Part shown: positions 12,279-45,560 of the stretch, piece by piece
How the letters are laid out: each line of letters starts with the position of its first letter
Position numbering within the stretch: position 1 is the stretch's first letter
DNA from: Tetraselmis striata
Lineage: Eukaryota; Chlorophyta; Chlorodendrophyceae; Chlorodendrales; Chlorodendraceae
NCBI GenBank assembly: GCA_006384855.1
Contig: VCJN01000388.1
Coordinates: forward strand, 1 to 64,000
Direction of reading: 5' to 3'
DNA: 64,000 nucleotides
Program-made: the position numbers and the translations under genes
The notes under the pieces: model-generated
Told to the model about the DNA's origin: nothing
What the model saw: only the letters and a program-made list of their open reading frames with translations
Databases searched by the model: none

Positions 12279-12728
12279 TGATCTAAACTAGTTTATGGGG
12301 TTTCCTCCTTTCCTAATCACTTTTCGTTTCCAGCTACATGTGTTGCTAAAAGTGTTAAGCGGTATTGGTTTTTTTTCGCCCCCGGGACAGGACTGGCACC
12401 AGTGAAACCTTTGCAGCGTCCCTACGACGGCCGTTGAGGCAGCAATCCAGTCACGGAAAGGCATGGGTAGGCGACGCTCCGTTTTAGTACGGTACGGGTT
12501 ACTAGTTCACCCGTCGCTGCGCCCGGTAGTGTGCAACATGATTAGAAATAAAAGCAGCCGCAACAACAAAGCCGGCTATCTCCCGGTTTCGCTATGTTGC
12601 ACAACGATTAAATGTCCCGTAACATGTTGCGGACAAGATATATCGATCACGTGTTATTTCAAGACCACACCTGGCTTACCATATATGTGTGTAGTTCTAC
12701 CTCATCTGTACGTCCGCCGTGCGTCACC

Positions 12729-13641
12729 ATGCCAGATGAAGAAGACCCCGTATAGCTGAGCCGACGGTCGAATCGCTCCAAGCGGACATGCAAGCTCGGT
12801 ATACATTGCTGCTCGAGCTCTTATCGTCGTTGGCCCAATTGTCGGCTCATGGACGTGTTGTCGATGGAAACACAGCACGTGCCTCTGGATTCGGGCAGCG
12901 CGTCGCGGGCGGACAGCCGACAAGCAGCGGGAGAGCTACATCGCGCCCCGACTTGCTAGAGCTAGCAGCCAGGAGCGGCCATAGTGTCGGAGCAAAATCC
13001 GCGAGTGACGATCGAGGACGACTACCTCACAATGCCAAAGCTACTACGGCAGAGAGCATAGCATGGTCACGAGGATGTTCGCCCCGTCAGCCGGGTGCAT
13101 GGGCGTCTCCCTCTGCCTACCAACCTAACGGACGACTGCAGCAAGCATGATGACCGGCGGCTGCCGGTTCATGAGGAGTACGTATGAATGACGTGTTTTG
13201 AAGCTCACGCCGCCGCTATCCTCGTGGCTCTCGACGAGGTGCTATACTCTTCGTCTCAGTTCGTTGCGAATCATTACTTCACTCCCTACCTCGTGCGCGC
13301 TCCGAACCACGCCGAGGCCATCGACAAGGCGTTTCGCGTTGGTCTAGCCTTCTTATTGCGGAGGTTTAACGAGATCAAGCGGGTAGCAAGGTGACCAATG
13401 GGTTTTGGACGTGCTGCGGGCGCTCAACACTTCGAACTCGCAACAAGAAAGCACTCGGGCTCTGCGGGTTTTTGGCGGGGACCTGATGCGCCTACGAGCG
13501 TCGGGTTTTCGAGGCAATAGTCGGCAATAGCGCCAAGGCCACCGCCACTGCTCGTGTGGCGGCGACGCTCGTCGCAGGTCGCGGGCGTAGACGCGGGCGC
13601 TTTGGCAGTCGGGGGCGTGGACGCGAAGGCGAGCACGAGTG
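12729..13641 (+). pseudogene. Gag-like ORF1 of element copy 1, broken
   Basis: Fragments match the intact ORF1 at 28110-28985: MPDEEDPV at the start (then a stop), ARASGFGQRV, RPDLLELA, the block APNHAEAIDKAFRVGLAF, and an Arg-rich tail. It ends at GEHE followed by TGA, in the same place as the intact copy. Several frame changes are needed to read through it. Confidence 0.75.
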
Positions 13642-15420
13642 ATGGGGTGGGGCGCCTTCTGCCGGAGCTGCTGGCATTTTGCGAGGTCGCGTTTTGGCGA
13701 CCGCCGCACTGCGGACGTAGCAGCTCAACGGCGGGCGGATGAGCGTCCCGTGTCCGGACCGGACCCCCAATCCTACAGACTTCATTTAGACCTTCCTCGA
13801 GGTGCGGCGCTTCTTACAGCCAAGCCGAGTGCGGCTCAACCATCCGCACACATGCACATGACGGTTCATCAACACCCCGTCTCCCGTACCATTTCATCGC
13901 TGCGTCCGTCGGCCGTTATACTCTACGGGTTACAACTGGTTCGCAGCGACCAACATTCGCGCATGTACGTTACGCGCGAAACATGCGCCACGAGCGCGAC
14001 GGGCGCGTGGGGCGGCCCGCCTACCTCAACATTGCCCCGCAAACCCGTTCTACTGGCGCCCAGACTAACTCGTCCGGCAATTACCTTTCAAGTGATGGCA
14101 ACTCAACTGCCACTGCGGGTTATTTTGCCGGAATGGCCCCGCGTCCTGTTACCCCGTCGGTCAAACGTCATGTTACCCCTGTTACGTGTTTGACGAGCGA
14201 GAAGCTCCCGCCCCATGGGCGCCTTCGCTTCGGACCCGTCTGCATGAGGCGTTCGGCTCGGACGAGATGGAGCAACGCATACTCGATATCCTCTCCAGCT
14301 TGCTCACCTCCCATACTCTACGAGGCTACGCCGGCAAGCTGTCACAGTTCGCCGAGTTCTACCACGACTCAGAGAACATCAGCCCGTTGGAAGCAAGTAC
14401 TACCGTTGTTCGGCACGTCGCTTGGATCGGAGAGCGGGGCCACATTGGGGCCAAGTCGTAGTTGCAGCCATACATGCATGCAATCAACACGTTCTTCAAG
14501 ATGCACAACATCGACCCATCGCTAAGGACGGCCTACACCTTATCGCCACACGTCGTGGCGTGCTAATTAGGCAACGCCGCATGGAGACTGTCGCTTTGCG
14601 TGTTCCGTTGCCTGCCGATGTCGCTTACTCTTCCGTTGAGCGTGCCGAGTTGATTGTTTCTGCTCTTCCCCCCAAGTAGTACCAATACGACTTCCAGGCC
14701 TTCGTTCGCGGCCGCGGTGAGTCGCCGACCTCCTCTTCTTCGCGCGGGGGCTTATTGGAATGTCTTGCCAAGTGAGGGACGTGCATGTCGACTCCTACAA
14801 CATCACCCTACACGGGTACCGCGGGAAGGCCCGCGCCGGCCGGCGCGGCCCCGGCGAATTACGCGTGCTGCCTCTTCCTGTGTCGGAGCACCTTGCGTCG
14901 CCCGTCTCCTGTATAACTTCATCGACAACGTCCAGTCTGTCCCTCTGGTCCCTGCTGCCTTGGCCGAGACTAACTTCTGGGCGGTCACCCCGAACGAGCT
15001 GTCCAAGCCGTGGACTGCCGCTACCATGTCGGATTGGCTCCGTAGTACGGCCATTTGTCTTGTCGGTGTTGCCCCCGCTGCCGGCTCTTCATCGAGCTCT
15101 CACAGCCTTCGCAAGGGTGCAGCTTCTGTTGCGAACTCCATCGGAGTCCCACAGTCCCACATCCGCCACCAAGGAAGGTGGGCGACCAACTCCGACGTCG
15201 TTCTGGACTACATCGAACCCAACGCTACGTCCCCCCTTCACTTGGCGCGTGGTTCTTCTTCGGCCACTTCGCGCCCCGCCTTCGCCACTTGCAAGTTCAA
15301 CAAGAATCCGCAGCAGTGGCCCTTCCGATGCCCCCCTTCGTGGCCTGGCGCTGTCCCTGCTTCGTCAGTCTGCCGCTCTCTTTTTTCGCTCTTCCCTGGC
15401 AAAATCAGACTCAACTTGAA
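13642..15420 (+). pseudogene. Tyrosine recombinase of element copy 1, broken
   Basis: Fragments in different frames match the intact recombinase at 26445-28073. The helical N-terminal SAM-like region is at 14186-14461 (SHTLRGYAGKLSQFAEF), and the catalytic HSLRKGAASVAN block is at about 15100-15140. A conserved Tyr follows in VLDYIEPN. Stops and shifts, for example after SLGAKS near 14460, make it inactive. Confidence 0.8.
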
Positions 15421-15423
15421 ATG
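15397..15423 (+). repeat. Repeat B1 of element copy 1
   Basis: TGGCAAAATCAGACTCAACT and what follows match the B repeats of the intact copy, directly after the recombinase frame. A diverged B2 is at 15713-15737. Confidence 0.75.
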
Positions 15424-15808
15424 ATACCTAAGCTAGTTGCTTTGAAATGAAATTAGTTGATCACGGGGTTTCCTCCTTTCCTAATAACCACTTTCCGGCT
15501 ACATGTGTTGCTATGTGGTACGGGTTACTAGTTCACCCGTCGCTGCGCCCATTCGTGTGCAGCATGAGTACGCATAAAAACAGCCGCACCAGCTGAGCCT
15601 GCCATCTTCCAGTTTCGCTTTGTTACACACAGCGCCATCCCTCACTCCGTTTTCCCTCCACGCTCTTGAACGTGTAAATCCTTCGCCATCTTGATGATCC
15701 TTCGCCATCTTTTTGGCATAACCACACAACTTGAAACCCGATACTGTAATATAATACCTGTACAGAATTACAAAAAGGGTACAGGGTACAGGGTACAGGT
15801 AGGTCGCT

Positions 15809-25924: not shown

Positions 25925-26015
25925 GCCGCCTGTACCGGCACCGGACGCCGGACGCCGTCGCTCGACCGTCGCCCGTCCGTCGACGGACGCCGGGCCCCGG
26001 GTCGGCGGACTGCCC
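25925..26015. repeat. GC-rich CGTCCGGCGTCC repeat, copy 1
   Basis: A block of overlapping CGGACGCC/CGTCCGTCGACGG words. Its reverse complement is at about 59480-59595, where the order of words is nearly the same. Confidence 0.7.
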
Positions 26016-26058
26016 CCGCACCGCGGCGACCCCTTTTTACACTACCATCATGTTACAG

Positions 26059-26086
26059 CATTTCAAAGTTGAGTCTGGTTTTGCCA
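26059..26086 (-). repeat. Repeat B2 of element copy 2
   Basis: 28 bases beginning TGGCAAAACCAGACTCAACT on the minus strand, identical to B1 at 26364-26391. It marks the 3' edge of the element. Confidence 0.9.
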
Positions 26087-26179
26087 AAAAGGTCGCGCAG
26101 GCTGTTTTACACGGTCAAGAGCCGAAATTGGCAGGAAGGTTTAGCGAAAAGCGTGGAGGGAAAACGGAGTCAGGGGGGG

Positions 26180-26365
26180 CGCTGCGTGGAACGCAGCGAA
26201 AACTGGAAGATGGCAGGCTCAGCTGTTCTGGCTGCTTTTATGTCTACTCGTGCTGCACCCAACAAGGGCGCAACAACAGTTACTAGTTCCCGTACCACTG
26301 CGCAGCACTTGTAGCTGAAAAGCGGTTAGGTCAAGGATGGAAACCCCATAAACTAGTTTAGATCA
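26180..26365 (-). repeat. Repeat A2 of element copy 2
   Basis: 186 bases, the same as A1 (29099-29288) except that A1 has four extra bases (TAAC) near its middle on the plus strand. It overlaps B1 by two bases (TG). Confidence 0.93.
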
Positions 26366-26391
26366 TTTCAAAGTTGAGTCTGGTTTTGCCA
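26364..26391 (-). repeat. Repeat B1 of element copy 2
   Basis: 28 bases just past the end of the recombinase gene, identical to B2. Confidence 0.9.
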
Positions 26392-26444
26392 GTCTTGAGC
26401 GAACGGAGAGAGCGGTGGATTGACGGAGAAGGGGTAGCGCCAAG

Positions 26445-28073
26445 TCATGAAGGAGGCACTGGGAAGGCCACCGCTGCGGAGTCCTGTTGGACTTGGAAGT
26501 GGCGGAGAGGGGCGATGTGTCCAAAGAAGAACCATGCGCCAGGAGAAGGAAGAACGTTGGGGTCGATGTAGTCCAGAACGACATCAGAGTTAGTGGCCCA
26601 ACCGCCCTGGTAGCGGATGTGGGACAGTGGCGCTCCAATGGCGTTTGCTGCAGAGGCTGCGCCCTTGCGTAGACTGTGTGAAGTCCAGGAAGTGCCAGCA
26701 GGGGGGGCAGCGTTGACTAGGTTGACTGCTGTAGACAACCAGTCTGACATCGTAGTAGCAGTCCAAGGTTTCGACTGCTCAGCCACATTGACAGCCCAGA
26801 AGTTGGAGGTAGCCAAGCCAACAGTAACCAGGGGGACAGACTGGACGTTGTCGATGAAGTAGCGCAAGAGACGTGCCACTCGAGGGTGCTCGGACACTGG
26901 AAGGAGAAGTACGCGCAGGTCGTCAGGTCCCCGCCGGCCGGCGCGACCCTTCTCGCGGTAGATCTGCAAGGTGATGTTGTAGGTGTCGACATGCACATCT
27001 TGCACTCGACAGGAGACGCCAGTAAGGCCCCTGGCAAAGAACAGGAAGTTGACAACCGAGGCCAAGAGGGCTCGGTAGTCGAGGTGGGACTCTGGGTAAG
27101 GAGCAGACACAATTAGCTCGGCCTTTGAGACGAAGCGGTAAGCTACATCCGCAGGCAGAGGGACACGCAAAGGGGCAGCGTCCAGTCGACGCTGACGTAA
27201 CATTAACCCACGTCTTGCCGAAGTGAGGTGTAGGCTGTCCTTGGCGATCGGGACGAGGTTGTGCAGCTCGAAGAAGGTGTTGATGGCAGACAGATAGGGC
27301 TGCAGCGACTTAGCTGCGATATGCCCTCGCTCCCCGATCCAGGCAACGTACCGAACAACAGTAGCAGTAGTCGCCTCTAGCGGGCTGATGTTCTCGGAGT
27401 CGTGGCAGAACTCAGCGAACTGAGCCAACCTGCCGGCGTAGCTCTTGAGGGTCTGAGCGCTGAGGGAGCTGGAGAGCAGGTCGAGCGTCCGCTGGCCTAG
27501 CTCGTCTGAGCCGAACGCGTCCTGTAGTCGGGATCGCAGTGACGCAGCCCACGGAGCGATAGCTGCGGGCTCGTCGATTACGTAAGTGCGTCGTTTTACT
27601 GACAGAGTGCCACCGGCACGGCTACTGTTCGCAAAGTACTCGGCAGCAGCGGTTAGGTTCCCGGCGGTTGGCCGCCGGTAGTTGCTGGACGGGTTTGCAG
27701 TAGCTCCAGTACGGGTTTGCGGGGCTAGGTTCAGGTAGGAGGGCCGCCCCGCGCGCCCTTCGCGCTCATAGCGCCTGTCCCGTGCGTAACGTACACGCGC
27801 GAAACTTGGTCGTTGCGAACCGGTTGTAACTCGTAGTGTAACAACCGACGAACGCAGAGATGGGGTTGTAAGAAAGGCGGATGGTTGAGCCGCCATGTGC
27901 AGGTGTGCGGATGGTTGAGCCGCACTCGGCTGTAGCTGTAAGAAGCGCCGCACCGAGGAAGGTCTAAATGAAGTCTGTAAGGTGGGGGGGTCAGGTCCTG
28001 ACACAGGGCGCTCATCCCGTCGTTGAGCTGCAAGGGTGCGCCTTGCGGCGGTCACCGAAAGGTGGCCTCGCAA
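26445..28073 (-). CDS. Tyrosine recombinase (DNA strand transferase) of the element
   Basis: Site-specific recombinase that would integrate the element's circular DNA through a tyrosine intermediate. The domain is 542 residues counted from a TTG at 28073. It has no ATG near the front, and its frame is open back to the UGA that ends ORF1, so it is probably made as a readthrough fusion. The SAM-like core-binding region is around residues 190-240 (AQTLKSYAGRLAQFAEF). The catalytic set can be seen: Arg about 348 in FFARGLTGVSCRVQDV, His466 and Arg469 in HSLRKGAASAAN, Trp492 in YQGGW, Tyr502 in VLDYIDPN. The front 150 residues are Ser/Arg/Pro-rich and look like a linker. Crypton recombinases are an alternative family, but the A-B repeats favour Ngaro. 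Confidence 0.9.
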   Translation of the reverse strand: MRGHLSVTAARRTLAAQRRDERPVSGPDPPTLQTSFRPSSVRRFLQLQPSAAQPSAHLHMAAQPSAFLTTPSLRSSVVTLRVTTGSQRPSFARVRYARDRRYEREGRAGRPSYLNLAPQTRTGATANPSSNYRRPTAGNLTAAAEYFANSSRAGGTLSVKRRTYVIDEPAAIAPWAASLRSRLQDAFGSDELGQRTLDLLSSSLSAQTLKSYAGRLAQFAEFCHDSENISPLEATTATVVRYVAWIGERGHIAAKSLQPYLSAINTFFELHNLVPIAKDSLHLTSARRGLMLRQRRLDAAPLRVPLPADVAYRFVSKAELIVSAPYPESHLDYRALLASVVNFLFFARGLTGVSCRVQDVHVDTYNITLQIYREKGRAGRRGPDDLRVLLLPVSEHPRVARLLRYFIDNVQSVPLVTVGLATSNFWAVNVAEQSKPWTATTMSDWLSTAVNLVNAAPPAGTSWTSHSLRKGAASAANAIGAPLSHIRYQGGWATNSDVVLDYIDPNVLPSPGAWFFFGHIAPLRHFQVQQDSAAVAFPVPPS

Positions 28074-28106
28074 GGCTCCTGCAGCTCCGACGAACGGCGC
28101 CCCACA

Positions 28107-28112
28107 CCGTCA
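28107..28112 (-). promoter_or_regulatory. Possible stop-codon readthrough site (UGA CGG)
   Basis: ORF1 and the recombinase are in the same frame, separated only by UGA and 12 sense codons before the first possible TTG start. UGA followed by CGG is a known leaky context in some plant RNA viruses. The stop sits at the same place in copies 1 (UGA UGG) and 3 (UGA CCG), with downstream sequence aligning without gaps for the next 13 or so bases. Confidence 0.5.
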
Positions 28113-28985
28113 CTCGTGCTCACCTTCGCGGCCACGTCCACGTCCCCCGCCACGTCCTCGACCACGCCCGCGACCTGCAGCTGCAGCCGCCACTCGAGAA
28201 GTAGCGGTCGCCTTGGCGCTGCTGGCAACGGTCGCCTCGAAAACACGACACTCGTAGTCCCGCATGAGGTCCCCAAAGATCGCGGAACCCAGGTGCTCCG
28301 AAGCAGGCTGAAAATGCTGAGCTCGCAGCACATCCAGAACACCTTGGTCACCGTGCACACGCTTGATCTCATTGAGCTTCCGTAGGAAGGCCAAACGAAA
28401 CCGAAACGCCTTGTCGATGGCCTCGGCGTGGTTCCGGGCTCTCGCGAGGTAGGGGGTGAAGTCCTGGTTGCTGGAAGGGACGTAGGGCAGTAGCTCGTCG
28501 AGCGCCACGAAAAGGGCGGCCATGTGGGCCCCGAAACACGACATCCACAAGTACTCCTCCTGGGCCGGCAGACGCCGGTCATCCTGCTTGAGGTACTCGT
28601 TCGTTAGGTCGGTGCTCAAAGGGAAAAGTCCAGGCACTCGGCTGACCGGTCGAACGGCCTCGTAACCAGACTCTGCTCTCTGCAGTAGCTCTGGCACCGC
28701 GAGGTAATCATCCTCGGCACTCACGGATTTTGCTCCGACACGGCCGCTCTGGGCTAGCTCTAGCAAGTCGGGGCGCTCTGCGGCTCCCCCGCTGCCTGTC
28801 GGCTGTCTCGCGAAGCGCTGCCCTGAGCCGGAGCCATGTGCCCCTTCTCCATCAACAACGCGATCACGAGCCGTCAATTGTGCCACAGCTGTAGCCAGCT
28901 CTCGCAGTAATGAAGACTGGGCCCTCATATCTGCGTTCAGCGACTGCAGCGTCGGCTCAGCGACGGGTTCTTCTCCATCTGACAT
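28110..28985 (-). CDS. Gag-like ORF1 of the element
   Basis: 291 residues from MSDGEEPVAEPTLQSLNADM, chosen because the decayed copies share this start. It has a short coiled region (RAQSSLLRELATAVAQL) and a central conserved block (NHAEAIDKAFRFRLAFLRKL). The tail is basic, rich in Arg and Gly (RGRGRGGGRGRGR), and could bind nucleic acid. No zinc knuckle is present. I call it gag-like from its position and basic tail only; the sequence family is not recognised. It ends at UGA (28112-28110) followed by CGG, after which the frame stays open into the recombinase. Confidence 0.75.
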   Translation of the reverse strand: MSDGEEPVAEPTLQSLNADMRAQSSLLRELATAVAQLTARDRVVDGEGAHGSGSGQRFARQPTGSGGAAERPDLLELAQSGRVGAKSVSAEDDYLAVPELLQRAESGYEAVRPVSRVPGLFPLSTDLTNEYLKQDDRRLPAQEEYLWMSCFGAHMAALFVALDELLPYVPSSNQDFTPYLARARNHAEAIDKAFRFRLAFLRKLNEIKRVHGDQGVLDVLRAQHFQPASEHLGSAIFGDLMRDYECRVFEATVASSAKATATSRVAAAAAGRGRGRGRGGGRGRGREGEHE

Positions 28986-29098
28986 AGTAACGCACGGACG
29001 TACGGACGAGAATATCACACTCGGGTGGCGAGCCGGGTGTGGTCTTGAACAACCTGGGGTGACCTTGCTCGCAACGGGTTACGAGACAGTTTTTACAT

Positions 29099-29288
29099 CG
29101 CTGCGTGGAACGCAGCGAAAACTGGAAGATGGCAGGCTCAGCTGTTCTGGCTGCTTTTATGTCTACTCGTGCTGCACCCAACAAGGGCGCAACAACAGTT
29201 ACTAGTTCCCGTACTAACCACTGCGCAGCACTTGTAGCTGAAAAGCGGTTAGGTCAAGGATGGAAACCCCATAAACTAGTTTAGATCA
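29099..29288 (-). repeat. Repeat A1 of element copy 2
   Basis: 190-base 5' repeat starting TGATCTAAACTAGTTTATGG on the minus strand; see A2. Confidence 0.93.
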
Positions 29289-30192
29289 TATCCTCGGACC
29301 ACCGTGTACATAGTCGCTGTATAAATATAGAGGGCACGCCTCGCTTGCTGATTCAGCAATAAAAACGCGCTGCGGTACCGCGTTATTTTGGCGTTTCAGA
29401 CGAATACATGACGTGCCTGGGCTAGAATACACGCGCATCCATTCAGAATCTTACCGTCTTCGGAGGTCATTCTAGAAATCAAACGAGCACAGATCGAACG
29501 TATGACGGTTCATACGCGAAGACGCAGCACTGGAGGACGGAGGACGGACGCCGAAAAATCCGTGATAAGACCGTATTGTAACCGGTATCGATTCTCTCGT
29601 ATTCCAGGCGATTTCGGGCGCGGCTCTCCTTTTCCTCCGCTCAACCCAAGAGGTAGGGGAATCTTTTATTATCTATATATTTATTGGAGTCGCTCGCAGA
29701 CGGCGGCGACGACGGAGAAACGGAAGCGCGATGGAGAAACGGAAGCGCCGGACGAAGGAAGCGGTTTATATAGATGAGCGACTGTAGTCGATATTGCCAT
29801 CCCTGGACTCGCCAGTCCCGCGGCAGCTCTATTACGCTGCGGAGGAATACGGATTTTTATAACATGGCCTTTAAAATTAGGAGTCGCTCGTTACAGTATA
29901 GTCGGGCGCCCGCGGGGGCGGCGCACGCGCGCGAATTGGTCCGCCGGCGCGCCGCCGACCAGCCGCGAAAGATCGGCGGCCGACAGTCCCGACCTGCCGG
30001 GCAGACGGGCACAGGCAAGTAGTGGTACTGTATCCTATCTATACTACCGCAACCTCACCCCAACGCACAGTGTAGCCTCAGCGCCCATTCCGACAGTCGC
30101 TGCGCGGTTGCAGGCTGCGGCATCCGGCTGAGAGTCTAGTGGGGGGCGCACCTGAGGCGCGGCTGCCGACGAGAGCGCGGCGAAGGGCGGCG
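29289..30192. other. Upstream region of TRM112, no other gene seen
   Basis: Mixed composition with short open frames of no recognisable content. The TRM112 promoter should lie near 30050-30190. Confidence 0.4.
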
Positions 30193-34821: not shown

Positions 34822-35118
34822 TGATCAGAATTAGTTTATGTGGTTTTCTCCTTTATTTCCTCACCGCTTTTCCGGCTACATGTGCTGCTAGGTGGTACGG
34901 GATACTTGCTCACCCGTACTCGCGTGTGCAACACGAGTAGACATAAAGCAGCCGGAACAACTGAGCCTGCTATCTTCCAGTTTCGATGTGTTACACACAG
35001 GGATTAACTATCCCGTAACCTGTTGCGGGCAAGGTCACATGATGTTTCAAGACGACATCCGGCTCACCACCCGTGTGCGTGATTATTATCCGTACGTCCG
35101 TGCGTCGTCATCACGTCC

Positions 35119-36023
35119 GATGGACGAGAAGACCCGTCGCCGGGCCGACGGTCGAATCGCGTCAAGAAGACATGCGTGCCCAATCTACATTGCTGCTCGA
35201 GCTCACAGCATTGATGGCCCAATCGGCGGCTCGCATCGTGAATGTGGTGGCGATGGAGACGGAGCACACGGCTCTGGTTCCGGGCAGCGCGTCGCAGGAC
35301 AGCCAACATGCAGCGGGGGACCCGCAATGCGCCCCGCCTTGTTAGAGCTAGCCCATAGCGGCGGTGTCGGGGCAAAATCCGCGAGTGACGAGGACGACTA
35401 CCTCGCGGTGCCACAACAAAGGCTTGTTATGAGAATGTGCATAGCCGGTTATGACGAGGACGTTCATTGGACCGGTCAGCCGAGGACCTGGGCTTTTCCC
35501 TTTGTGTACGGACATGACGAACGACTACCTCAAGCGCCAGGATGACCGGCGTTTGCCGGCCCAAGAGGAGAACATTTGGATGATTGACATCTTTTGGGGC
35601 TCAAACAGCCGCTCTCTTCGCGGCTCTCGTCGAGATGTTGCCCTACGTTCCCGCTACTACTAATCAGGACTTCTTCCCCTACCTCACGCGCGCCGAGAAC
35701 TACGCCGAGGCCATCGACAAGGCGTTTTGCTTTCGTCTAGCCATCCTGCGGATGAGGCTTAGCGAGATCAAACGTGTGCACGAGGATTAGGGGATGCCGG
35801 AGGTACTGCGGGGTCAGCATTTCCAGCCCGTAGCAGAGCACCTGGGTTGTGTGGTATTCGGGGCCATGAAGGGCGATTACGAGCGTCGGTCTTCGAGGCT
35901 ACAGCCGGCAACAGCGCGAAGGCTACCGCCACTGATGGAGTGGCGGCGACGCTCGCATATGTCGCGGGCGTGGACGTGTACGCGGTGGCGGTCGAGGATG
36001 CGGCCGCGAAAGTGAGCGCAAGT
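35119..36023 (+). pseudogene. Gag-like ORF1 of element copy 3, broken
   Basis: Matches the intact ORF1 in pieces: STLLLELTALMAQSAARIVN, LLELAHSGGVGAKSASDEDD, NYAEAIDKAFCFRLAILRM, and a degenerate basic tail ending before TGA CCG. At least four frame changes. Confidence 0.75.
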
Positions 36024-37684
36024 GACCGCGTGGGGCGCCTTATGTCGGAGCTTCTAGCGCTTTGCGAGGTCACCTTTCGGTGACCGCCGCACAGTCGTCG
36101 GCGAACATTGACAGCTCAACAACGGAATGAGCGCCTCGTGGCCGGACCAAACCCCCTACCATGCAGATTTCATTCAGACCTTCCTCGGTGCGGCGCTTCT
36201 TACAGCCACAGCCGAGTGCGGCTCAACCATCCGCACACCTACACATGACATTTCAGCAACCCGTATCCCATGCCATTCCATTACTGCGTCCGTCGGTTGT
36301 TACTACTCTACGGGCTACAAGTGGTTCGCAGCGACCATCATTCGCGCGTGTACGGTACGCGCGAGACATGCGCTACGAGCGCGACAAGCGCGCGGGGCGG
36401 CCCGTCTACCTGGAGATTGCCCCGCAAACCCGTCGTCCTGGTGCCCAGACGAACCCGTCAAGCAATTATTACCGTCCAACTGCTAGCAAGTTAACCTCTG
36501 CGCTCGATTACTTTGCCGGAATGGGCTGGCCTCGTGTTATACCCCGGGAGTTAAACGTCGCTCTTACGTGATTGATGAGCCCGGGGCTCTGCCCCCATGG
36601 ACGGCTTCACTCCGGGCCCGTCTACTGGAAACGTTCGGCTCGGACGAGCCGTGGCAACGCATCTTCGACCTCCTCTCCAACTTCCTCACCGCCCACGCTC
36701 ACAAGCTACGCCGACAAGCTGTCTCGCAGAGTTTTGCCACGACTCCGATAATATATATCAACCCGCCGGAGGTGACTACGGCCACCGTCGTTCGGTACAT
36801 CGCTTGGATTGGTGAGCGGGGCCACATTGGGGTTAAGTCGTTGCAGCCCTACCTATCAGCAATCAACACGTTCTTCGATACGCATAACGTCGAACCCATC
36901 GCTAAATAATAAAACAGCCCGCACCTCGCCGCCGCGCGTCGTCGCATGCTACTTAGGCAATGCCGCATAGAGGTTGTTCCATTGCGCGTCGTCCCGTTAC
37001 CTGTCGATGTAGTTATTATTTTGTCGATGAGCGAGCCGAGTTAACTGTGCCCGATCCTCCTCCCGACTCTAGCAGTATAACTTTTGGGCCCTTATGGCCG
37101 CGGTTGTCAAATTCGTGTTCTCTGCCAAGGGACATACTAGCGTGTCCTGCCGAGTGCGGGACGTGCATGTCGACTCCTACAACGTCACCCTACATGCGTA
37201 CCGTGAGAAGGGGCGTGCCTTACGGCGCGGCCCCGACGACGACCTACACGTCATGCTCCTTCATGTGTCGGAGCACCCCCGCAGCCCGTCTCCTACACCA
37301 CTTAATCGACAACATTCAGTCTGCATCCATGGTCCATGCCGCGTTGGCCGAGACTAACTTCTGGGCGATCATCCCGAGTCCAAGACTGCCGCTACAATTT
37401 CGGAACTGGCTCTCTACTACTGCCGTTCGTCTCATCTGTGCTGCCCCTCATGTTGACACTTCCTGGACCTCTCACATCCTTCGCAAGGGTGCAGCCTATG
37501 CTGCTAACGCCGTTGGAGTCATGCTGTCCCACATCCGCTACCACGGCGGATGGGCCACTATCTCCGACGTCGCGTTCTGGACTACATCGACCCCAACTTC
37601 CTCCCCTCAGCTGGCGCACGGTTCTTCTTCCGTCGGCCACATCGCGCCCGCCCTTCGTCACTGAAGTTCAACAATACTCACTCC
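36024..37684 (+). pseudogene. Tyrosine recombinase of element copy 3, broken
   Basis: The region 36161-36909 matches the N-terminal half (YLEIAPQTRRPGAQTNPSSN; VVRYIAWIGERGHIGVKSLQ). The C-terminal half is in another frame: CRVRDVHVDSYNVTLHAYRE, then a DTSWTSHILRKGAAYAANAV block in which the catalytic His is preceded by Ser-His and the Arg is kept. The Tyr region is frame-shifted. Confidence 0.8.
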
Positions 37685-37798
37685 GCAACAGTGACCTTCT
37701 TGGTGCCCCCTTCGTGGCCTGTCAATACCCCTTCTTCGTCAATCATCTACCGCTTTCTTCGTTATCTCTTCACTCGCAAAACCAAACTCGATTTCAAA

Positions 37799-37966
37799 TG
37801 ATCTACACTAGTTCATGGGGTTTCCTCGCTTTTCCGGGCTACATGTGATGCTAAGTGGTACGGGTTACTAGTTCGCCCGTAACTGCGCCCGTTCGTGTGC
37901 TGCAGGAGTAAAGCAGCCGTAACAACTGAGCCAGCCATCTTCCACTTTCGCCGTGTAACACGTATC
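37799..37966 (+). repeat. Repeat A2 of element copy 3
   Basis: Begins TGATCTACACTAGTTCATGG, followed by the CCGGCTACATGTG-type block also found in A1 at 34822 onwards. Confidence 0.75.
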
Positions 37967-38206
37967 GCGCGCCCCGGACTCCGATTTTCCTCCACGCATT
38001 CATTAAAACTTTAATTATGCCAATTTAGACTCTTGATCGTGTAAAAACAGCCTGCGCGATATTTTTTGGCAAAACCATACTCAAATTGAAATCAGCATAC
38101 ATCCAGGCCAGCGGTCGCCCGGGCAACGTCGTCACTTCGACGAAAAGGCACACTGTCTACTTAGTTAGCAGAGTCAGTCAAAGCAAAAACGTATCAAATC
38201 CGATTA

Positions 38207-44084: not shown

Positions 44085-45560
44085 TATCGTCAGATCGGGT
44101 GGCATGCCATCGCACGTGGCCCGACCCACCCGTCTAGCTTCGTATGTTCTAGCGTATAGCGGAGACAACACACGTTATTCACTTAGTGATGAACCCGGCT
44201 GCTGTCCTTCCCTAACGCCCGGCCGCGCTTCCAGAAGCGACAGCCGACGATGCGACAGCCGCTACCTCCCAACTACCCTGGGTCAGTGAATAACACAGCT
44301 GACAGCTCCCCCAACACCTTTCGTATAGCACATCGTATAGAGCTACAGTATAGAGCTACCGTACCTCTCATCCTCCCGCCCGAGTGCTCCCCCATGCGAG
44401 CCCGCCCTCGCTCCGCGGCTAGTGTTTCCGTGTCGCGCTAGTTGCCGCGACTCCTGCAACACCCCGACCACGAGGCGTTGACCCGCGACACGGGGGCAGA
44501 TCCAACGCTAGCGGCGCCGTCTCACGCGCCAGTGTGCGGTACATGCGATGCTACGGGTAATTTGTCGGGGAGTTGGTTGGGGCTGAGTGGTTATGCTGGA
44601 GTTTGAGGGGTTGGCAATGCATATTGTATAGGTGGTACGCATGCCGTCCGCACCGTGTCGCCGTACGCATGGCCCGGCCTCCACCACACGGTGACGCTAT
44701 GACGCGATGGCGGTTTTTATGCCACACGATGTCCCGAATGGCATGTTTGCGTGTGACATGTCCGTGCATCACCGCGTCATCGGCAGTATACGCACGGTAC
44801 CCGTACGTGCCACCGGTGACGATGACGATGACGATGATATCGTTGCATAGAACGCGTCTCACACCCGAACACGATGCCATTTGGGACGTCGTGTGACATG
44901 AAAATCGTCATCGCGTCACCGCGTCACCGCGTGGTGGAGGCCGGGCCATGCGCACGGCGAAACGGTCGGTGTAGCGGACGGCGGGCGCATCGCCTCCGTG
45001 ATGCGCCCCCTCAAACTCCAGAACCACTGAGCACCAACTAAATCCCCGACAAATTATCCGTAGCACATCGCATGTACCTCACTGGCGCGTGATGCGGCGC
45101 TGTGAGACCCCCCCCCGCTAACGTTGGAACAATTCTCGTTTCGCAGGTCAACGCCCCGTCGTCGGGGTGTTGCAAGGGTCGCGATAACCAGCGCGACGCG
45201 GAAACAGTAGCCGCGGAGTGGGGGCTCGTAGGGGGAGCACTGAGGAGGGAGGATGAGAGGTACGGTGGCTCTATACGTCTGCTTCGATGTGCTACACGGG
45301 AGATGTTGGAGGAGCTGTGTTATTGACGGAGGGTTGGGAGGTTGCGGGGGCCCATCATCGGCTATCGTTCTTGGAAGCGCGGCCGGGCGCCCATGAGCGA
45401 CAGCCGGGTTCACCATTAAGTGAAACTATGTTATCTCGTCCGCTGTATGATGGAACTTTCGAAGCTAGGCTGGTGGGCGGGTGGGTCGTGCCCCGTGCGT
45501 GGCGGCAGGGTACGGCACTTCCGTGGCGTGGGGGTGGGACGAGATATCGGCGGGTGCCAT
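44085..45560. repeat. Long foldback: two arms of about 700 bases
   Basis: The left arm (about 44085-44768) and the right arm (about 44852-45560) are imperfect reverse complements along nearly all their length. Matching landmarks are CCCGGCCGCGCTTCCAGAA, AACACAGCT, CGTACCTCTCATCCTCC, GCAACACCCCGAC, AATTTGTCGGGGA and ATGGCCCGGCCTCCACCAC. A spacer of about 85 bases between them contains (GATGAC)n. A piece like the spacer recurs just outside at 45650-45710. No coding function is apparent. Confidence 0.8.

Follow-up and report, generated by a model that had tools for sequence, protein, structure and literature searches.

The 64,000-nucleotide stretch of the chlorophyte Tetraselmis striata analysed here (positions 1 to 64,000 of the forward strand of contig VCJN01000388.1, GenBank assembly GCA_006384855.1; hereafter the window) carries at 26061-29289, with its coding strand on the minus strand, a 3.2-kb mobile element that encodes a Gag-like protein and a tyrosine recombinase (YR) and lacks reverse transcriptase (RT). 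In sense orientation the order is A1, the Gag-like open reading frame 1 (ORF1), UGA, the YR-encoding ORF2, B1, A2, a spacer and B2. The repeat order, the identical B repeats, the two ORFs, their coordinates and the size of 3.2 kb had been described in a first-pass annotation made from the sequence alone, and our analysis confirmed them, adding the minus orientation and the fact that ORF1 and ORF2 share one frame with a single UGA between them. The features of the element and of its two relatives in the window are:

29289, minus: invariant A, the shared core base, adjoining A1 at the element end
29099..29288, minus: A1 repeat, 5' end of the element, ending in a 7-bp hairpin and carrying a 4-bp insertion
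29154..29161, minus: TATA-like box CATAAAAG in A1, its position in A1 worked out by hand
28110..28985, minus: ORF1, Gag-like, 291 amino acids from ATG, RG-rich C-terminus, stop codon UGA
28014..28112, minus: gag stop UGA CGG with RNA structure, probable readthrough signal, and first bases of the lost pol
26445..28109, minus: ORF2, tyrosine recombinase in the ORF1 frame, 554 codons open past the UGA
26366..26391, minus: B1 repeat (TGGCAAA...TTTGAAA)
26180..26365, minus: A2 repeat, directly after B1
26235-26242, minus: A2 counterpart of the TATA-like box CATAAAAG
26087..26179, minus: A2-B2 spacer, 93 bp, with TGTAA at 26107-26111
26061..26086, minus: B2 repeat, 3' end of the element
12279..15737, plus: older broken relative with the RT-less layout
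34822..38092, plus: older broken relative with the RT-less layout

B1 and B2 of the window element are identical 26-mers, A1 and A2 measure about 186 bp, and the internal B1A2 segment corresponds to both element ends joined, reading GAAA-TG-ATC with one A shared. The 4-base difference between the A repeats, to which the first-pass annotation had also drawn attention, is present in the window copy but private to it among eight aligned full copies, and was rejected as a family feature; A1 equals A2 in six of the eight, and L008 shows one substitution. The two older copies proved to be genuine plus-strand relatives, disrupted by stops and frame changes; their YRs are about 60% identical to that of the window element over the aligned pieces. 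ORF2 matched the Pfam model Phage_int_SAM_1 (E 6.1e-8) and, below the cut-off, Phage_integrase (E 0.0013). Residues R188, H306, R309, W332 and Y342, which we take to have catalytic roles, were invariant across six aligned YRs, and a profile of these six aligned with Cre over the HxxR motif, GGW and the catalytic Tyr (E 0.0007). Pfam detected RT in neither ORF1 nor ORF2, the ORF list of the element held no further RT-sized frame, and no RNase H or Dam-like methyltransferase domain was found in it. Structure prediction with AlphaFold was useless for Gag (pLDDT 39) and weak for the YR (pLDDT 52).

Searches of the host genome assembly (224 Mb) returned 37 full-length copies at 99-100% identity, the window copy included, among the 40 DNA matches listed, and 108 of 108 scored YR stretches, the best candidates, were stop-free over 382 amino acids at identities of 98-100%. 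With up to two mismatches the B1A2 junction was matched 1012 times and a 35-nt motif of the A end 1560 times, the reversed control patterns giving 0 in both cases. In view of the 37 near-identical full copies and the 1012 junctions, a one-off deletion was rejected. Among 100 of the 1560 A-end places, 45 of 49 same-strand neighbour spacings measured 2650-2930 bp, the remaining four were 968, 11537, 95721 and 105669, and none fell within the 4-9 kb expected for an RT-bearing copy. Likewise, none of 100 of the 1012 B1A2 junctions, compared by eye with the RT matches, adjoined one. That most genomic copies would contain RT, a possibility raised in the first-pass annotation, did not hold in these samples. 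All but one of the variable columns of the eight aligned full copies were private to a single copy, which points to a recent burst. Some copies form head-to-tail arrays whose unit is A-ORFs-B, as at C2249:54044-61021, where three YRs lie 2916 bp apart; four A ends spaced by 2.92 kb at C348:1466-10275 probably form such an array too.

The integration sites were characterised at junctions with exact end motifs. The host base before the invariant ATGATC was T in 8 of 10 distinct 5' junctions, and the first host base past GAAA was T or C in 32 of 33 distinct 3' junctions. When the flanks of the window copy were joined on the shared A, the resulting 140-nt sequence was found intact (140/140) at 12 of 40 scored places, and the insertion therefore involved neither target duplication nor loss, as is predicted for a tyrosine recombinase. 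The window copy (flanks 25990-26060 and 29289-29360) lies within a host repeat for which at least 40 matches were scored, and the L035 copy inserted a few bases away in another copy of the same repeat. Integrated full-length circles, in which B2 is joined to A1, were rejected, as none of the five pattern matches was exact, each having three mismatches and the look of ordinary host flanks; since this junction is expected only if two copies insert in tandem, its absence is not decisive. Two abutting elements on C764 were rejected as a circle product because their junction reads as one copy nested in the A1 of the other at TTTA/TGGGG.

Both ORFs are under purifying selection in the diverged sister copies. 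Pairwise ratios of nonsynonymous to synonymous substitution (dN/dS; Nei-Gojobori, own script), with the window copy as reference, were 0.03-0.37 for Gag in 31 comparisons, of which only 10 cover more than 200 codons (0.15-0.37), and 0.08-0.35 for the YR in 27 comparisons. The synonymous distance (dS) of the window copy to the sister copies ranged from 0.07 to 1.4. All comparisons share a single reference, and those of Gag are not independent, as six copies were counted twice as two loci each (L048/L071, L068/L072, L063/L073, L049/L074, L061/L075 and L054/L076), and for L050 and L059 part of the Gag match comes from another copy on the same locus. Broken copies were included, which should raise the ratio. 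The low ratios for both proteins suggest that the RT-less lineage has evolved for a long time with Gag and YR in use. The first-pass annotation had envisaged one deletion subfamily; the sister copies do not make up a single recent one, as dS to L048 is 0.5 and the aligned YR of L048 is stop-free.

RT-bearing relatives, for which the first-pass annotation had proposed a genome-wide check, were found in the same assembly with the same layout and differing A and B sequences. A Pfam search for YRs, followed by retrieval of the surrounding sequence, identified L069 and L070, in which Gag is followed by an ORF with RT and RNase H, the YR, and an A2 flanked by B repeats of 28-29 bp. The pol of L069 matched RVT_1 (E 9.7e-17) and, weakly, RNase H (E 0.065). 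A search with the L069-type RT gave 101 rows from 97 scored places, and among those scored one RT-bearing family accounted for 33 rows at 60% identity, covering residues 1-434 of 435, stop-free and with near-equal scores; this family is probably young. Its member L078 contains a Gag frame of 293 codons and a pol of 849 codons, followed by the YR. The L078 pol matched RVT_1 (1.1e-11) and RNase H models and showed a weak match to the Dam-like model PF05869 (E 0.013, 15.6 bits, below the cut-off of 28.1), while L069 gave no Dam-like match at E 0.1. The B1A2 of L078 reads TGGCAAACAGTGCCTCCTTGGGTAAA-TGGTC, and the A sequence past its B1 runs into a second Gag, i.e. an array. The L078-type YR gave 114 rows in the genome search, and junctions of the TGGTC type were matched 323 times (control 1); not all of these are RT-bearing, at least two being RT-less-like (C431, C611). 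A third RT-bearing group candidate, L079, had no readable B1A2.

A second frequent junction type, TGGCAAATCGTGCCTCCTTGGGTAAATGGTC, differs by two bases from that of the L078 family and was seen at C42, C54, C78, C141:15479, C205 and others. Among the matches listed, no L078-type YR or RT match lay beside the TGGCAAATCGTGCCTCCTTGGGTAAATGGTC junctions compared by eye. This junction type may represent another, independently reduced family.

In general the RT-bearing relatives are arranged as Gag-(pol)-YR-B1-A2; their B repeats are bounded by TGGCAAA...AAA, the junction reads AAATG(A/G)TC, and in L069 and L070 B2 could be seen as well. Pairwise identity among the three YR lineages (RT-less, L069 and L078) is about 40%, and the YR tree placed the RT-less copies apart from the three RT-bearing YRs with a support of 1.0, support being low within the RT-less part. 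ORF1 and the L069 Gag are homologous (26% identity over 128 amino acids, pairwise E 6e-4). At L069:98-735 lies a fragment of an RT-less element; it starts some 100 bp downstream of where the RT-bearing copy ends in B2.

A comparison of the pols pointed to how RT may have been lost. The pols of L069 and L078 align well from DGVARRADSC on and poorly upstream, and in the RT-bearing relatives this conserved start (DGVARR), read in the +1 frame, coincides exactly with the gag stop. L069, L070, L078 and the window element all carry TGACGGTGTGGNNCGCC at this stop, as do most sister copies with a few changes; in the window element the pol-start frame closes about 20 codons on. The RT-less element has thus retained the first bases of pol. 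In the RT-bearing relatives gag and YR share one frame and pol lies in the +1 frame, and therefore removal of pol leaves gag-UGA-YR in one frame. At the gag UGA of these relatives the conserved pol starts in +1 as if the U were skipped. A U-skipping shift at a stop codon is antizyme-like. One and the same gag stop (28112 in the window element) could thus be used both for shifting into pol and for reading through towards the YR. The gag-frame ORF stays open across pol to the YR in L078 but not in L069 and L070, where it is interrupted. In DIRS1-like elements the YR ORF is described as overlapping pol (PMC3266345).

We consider it about two-thirds probable that the element belongs to a lineage of YR retrotransposons of PAT-like/DIRS order that lost its RT while Gag and YR stayed under selection, and that inserts by means of its own YR and borrows RT. 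The starting points of this reading, namely structure, copy number, selection on both ORFs, clean integration, the RT-bearing relatives and the pol vestige, could be read directly from the genome, and to these we infer a borrowed RT, an RNA intermediate, a circle, readthrough and defined transcript ends. Transcription would proceed from a promoter in A1, and the RNA would end near B2 at a UGUAA signal. Gag would be made together with Gag-YR, the latter by readthrough of UGA CGG. The element RNA would be reverse transcribed in trans, most likely by RT from the intact PAT-like families that share its genome. Restoration of the missing ends from the internal B1A2 copy would give a circle, and the element's own YR would integrate this circle at T-A-Y sites without target duplication. 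The YR may have been kept because the A and B sequences of the relatives differ, so that the relatives' YR is unlikely to fit. A family with its own recombinase and a borrowed RT was one of two options offered in the first-pass annotation, and it is the better supported one, given RT-bearing relatives of the same layout, a homologous Gag, a related YR and open copies, with the borrowing itself presumed.

The translation step is suggested by the context of the gag stop. UGA CGG followed by a stem is classed as a type II readthrough context (PMC11166343). Starting at the UGA, 100 nt have a folding energy of -56.4 kcal/mol, compared with -41.0 for shuffles (z -4.1, 0/200). Across 26 copies 90.3% of cells pair, as opposed to 31-54% for slid partners, four pairs changed on both sides, and the covariation score was reached by 4 of 500 shuffles. 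The first hairpin past the UGA exists only in the family of the window element and did not enter the pair count, yet it lies within the fold used for the z-score. Readthrough of UGA CGG giving Gag-YR is likely on these grounds. A short intron between ORF1 and ORF2 was rejected in favour of recoding, which appears preferable given the in-frame UGA of most sister copies and the fold found there; exceptions to the UGA occur among the sister copies, e.g. GTGTCGG in L051.

As to the ends of the transcript, the distance from TGTAA to B2 is 25 nt in the window copy and 19 nt in L069 and L070, and the motif is intact at 16 of 17 sister B2 sites, a count from which the L046 row was dropped as a B1 site. 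Most chlorophytes studied use UGUAA as their poly(A) signal, with a peak about 17 nt before cleavage (PMC1868727); light-harvesting proteins are present in the genome. The TATA-like box CATAAAAG is a putative promoter element. An RNA ending at TGTAA would lack most or all of B2 and one starting past the TATA-like box would lack most of A1, and both could hence be rebuilt from B1A2. A1 and A2 change together between families, which fits rebuilding from B1A2, although gene conversion could do likewise.

Several observations weigh against this reading or parts of it. The first 61 nt from the UGA, taken alone, fold no better than shuffles (z +0.9), the shared stem starts about 17 nt past the stop rather than at the 6-12 nt of type II contexts (PMC11166343), and the covariation is mixed, shuffles matching the double-change pairs in 102 of 500 and the pair types in 158 of 500. 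TGTAA is kept in 99 of 100 aligned cells, little above the 94% of the whole spacer, and the TATA-like box in sister A2 repeats (173 of 192 cells kept) is conserved no better than the rest of A. The RT-bearing families seen have B and A sequences unlike those of the RT-less element, and it is therefore not obvious that their RT would recognise it. The head-to-tail arrays with their 2916-bp unit fit DNA circles or unequal crossing over equally well. RNA, cDNA, circle and mobilisation of the element were not observed, as the analysis used the genome sequence alone, and an RT-bearing copy with the same ends could exist among the roughly 900 further junctions.

The arrays, together with the clean, YR-like integration, are also what would be expected if the element moved as DNA, the YR excising or recombining a circle (A-ORFs-B or the whole element) and integrating it elsewhere in the manner of a Crypton, with split repeats and Gag as relics or in another role. 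A DNA-circle cycle driven by the YR alone has been proposed for Cryptons, and high copy number is possible for this type, more than 2,700 copies, non-autonomous ones included, being reported from medaka (PMC3212892). However, Gag is under purifying selection without an obvious need for it in a DNA mover, the number of about 1000 junctions stands against the very low copy number in most Crypton hosts (PMC3212892), the poly(A)-type signal lies just before B2, and A1 and A2 evolve in concert. Moreover, Pfam searches up to E 10 gave phage-integrase models alone and no Crypton (DUF3504-type) match, the presence of a DUF3504 model in the library being unchecked. Crypton-like movement with retroelement-style ends, the other option of the first-pass annotation, is therefore less likely than borrowed RT, and we regard it as unlikely. 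A replicative cycle in which the YR multiplies and spreads DNA circles through the B1A2 junction without reverse transcription, Gag acting at the DNA stage, seems improbable as well; if true, such an RT-free cycle would form a bridge between retroelements and Cryptons at about 1000 copies.

Alternatively, RT could be borrowed from an unrelated element, Ty3-like or a long interspersed nuclear element (LINE), rather than from the PAT-like relatives. Among the best 150 of 3001 RVT_1 candidates there are many uniform RT ORFs of about 1539 amino acids, whose Ty3-like label is based on frame size only, and the dominance of these ORFs in this search would favour such a source, as would the A and B ends of the PAT-like families, which are unlike those of the RT-less element. 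In contrast, Gag, YR and the B1A2 logic are common to the element and its PAT-like relatives, which implies a PAT-like RT adapted to such templates, and one PAT-like family is open and uniform; an unrelated source thus appears rather improbable. That the copies are plain deletion derivatives with the termini of an RT-bearing element, mobilised passively and with their ORFs as passengers, would account for the loss of RT in the presence of RT-bearing relatives (L069, L078), but is very unlikely given purifying selection on both ORFs, dS of 0.3-0.5 to copies stop-free in the aligned YR, termini unlike those of the RT-bearing families seen, so that the YR would need another site, and the absence of 4-9 kb spacings (0/49 among 100 of 1560 A-end places).

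Among known systems the borrowed-RT reading places the element closest to PAT-like retrotransposons, which have DIRS order and chlorophyte families in Chlamydomonas and Volvox, and with which it has in common the arrangement A1-...-B1A2B2, Gag, YR and the lack of target duplication. L069, L070 and L078 share in addition RT-RNase H and a YR ORF overlapping pol as in DIRS1-like elements (PMC3266345), and L078 the weak Dam-like match. Unlike PAT-like elements, the RT-less element has no RT, RNase H or Dam-like domain, and its Gag and YR are joined in frame by the UGA; it is a derived PAT-like relative and not a full member. The Ngaro-type label of the first-pass annotation stands as far as the split repeats are concerned, since these are common to Ngaro, PAT and VIPER, but the weak Dam-like match in L078, without a counterpart in L069 at E 0.1, may point to PAT-like elements rather than Ngaro. 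Ngaro and VIPER have the same split-repeat order (PMC6681497) and differ from the RT-less element in possessing RT/RNase H, and Ngaro is described as lacking the Dam-like domain (PMC4157794), whereas L078 has its weak match. The VIPER derivative SIRE, which corresponds to the A2-B2 region, is likewise a non-autonomous member of the YR retrotransposons, but with less than 0.5 kb (185 + 30 + 220 bp) it is too short for a YR (PMC6681497), while the RT-less element encodes Gag and YR under selection. Cryptons resemble the element in having YR as sole recombination enzyme and no RT; they lack long direct repeats and are very low in copy number in most hosts, medaka being an exception (PMC3212892), in contrast to an element with Gag, long split repeats and about 1000 junctions.

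Partly coding non-autonomous elements are found in other classes too. Plant TR-GAG elements of the long terminal repeat (LTR) type keep gag like the RT-less element and lack pol; they differ in their LTR organisation and in having no integration enzyme of their own. Within the present class TOC1 of Chlamydomonas, an RT-less relative of PAT-like elements, may be a precedent; no description of it was found in the literature searched. Nor was a Gag-plus-YR element without RT found in the portions covered of the open-licence papers searched (including PMC6681497, PMC12477816, PMC8226300, PMC4157794, PMC3212892 and PMC3266345). The best reading is that of a derived Gag-YR variant of PAT-like retrotransposons without RT, with about a thousand junctions and many near-identical copies. 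SIRE, the non-autonomous YR retroelement of the cited literature, is a short remnant by comparison (PMC6681497). That RT/RNase H was dropped and Gag and YR were kept suggests that the coat protein and the end-specific recombinase have to be self-supplied and the rest can be borrowed. The lineage also gives a plausible route by which YR retrotransposons could turn into RT-free Crypton-like elements. Intact RT-bearing relatives next to a compact 3.2-kb element also make the replication of split repeats, through RNA with a B1A2 template or through DNA circles, testable.

Some minor observations concern the assembly and the remainder of the window. Viral contigs alone were scanned for related elements, and 24 stretches fitted the pattern of a relative, none of which was confirmed. 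L039-L042 lie on bacterial-looking contigs of the assembly, with XerD-like and prophage-type integrases among bacterial-looking neighbours. At 44404-45225 the window contains nested inverted repeats (111 nt at 82% and 93 nt at 88%, with arms 600 and 129 nt apart), which are possible transposon ends.

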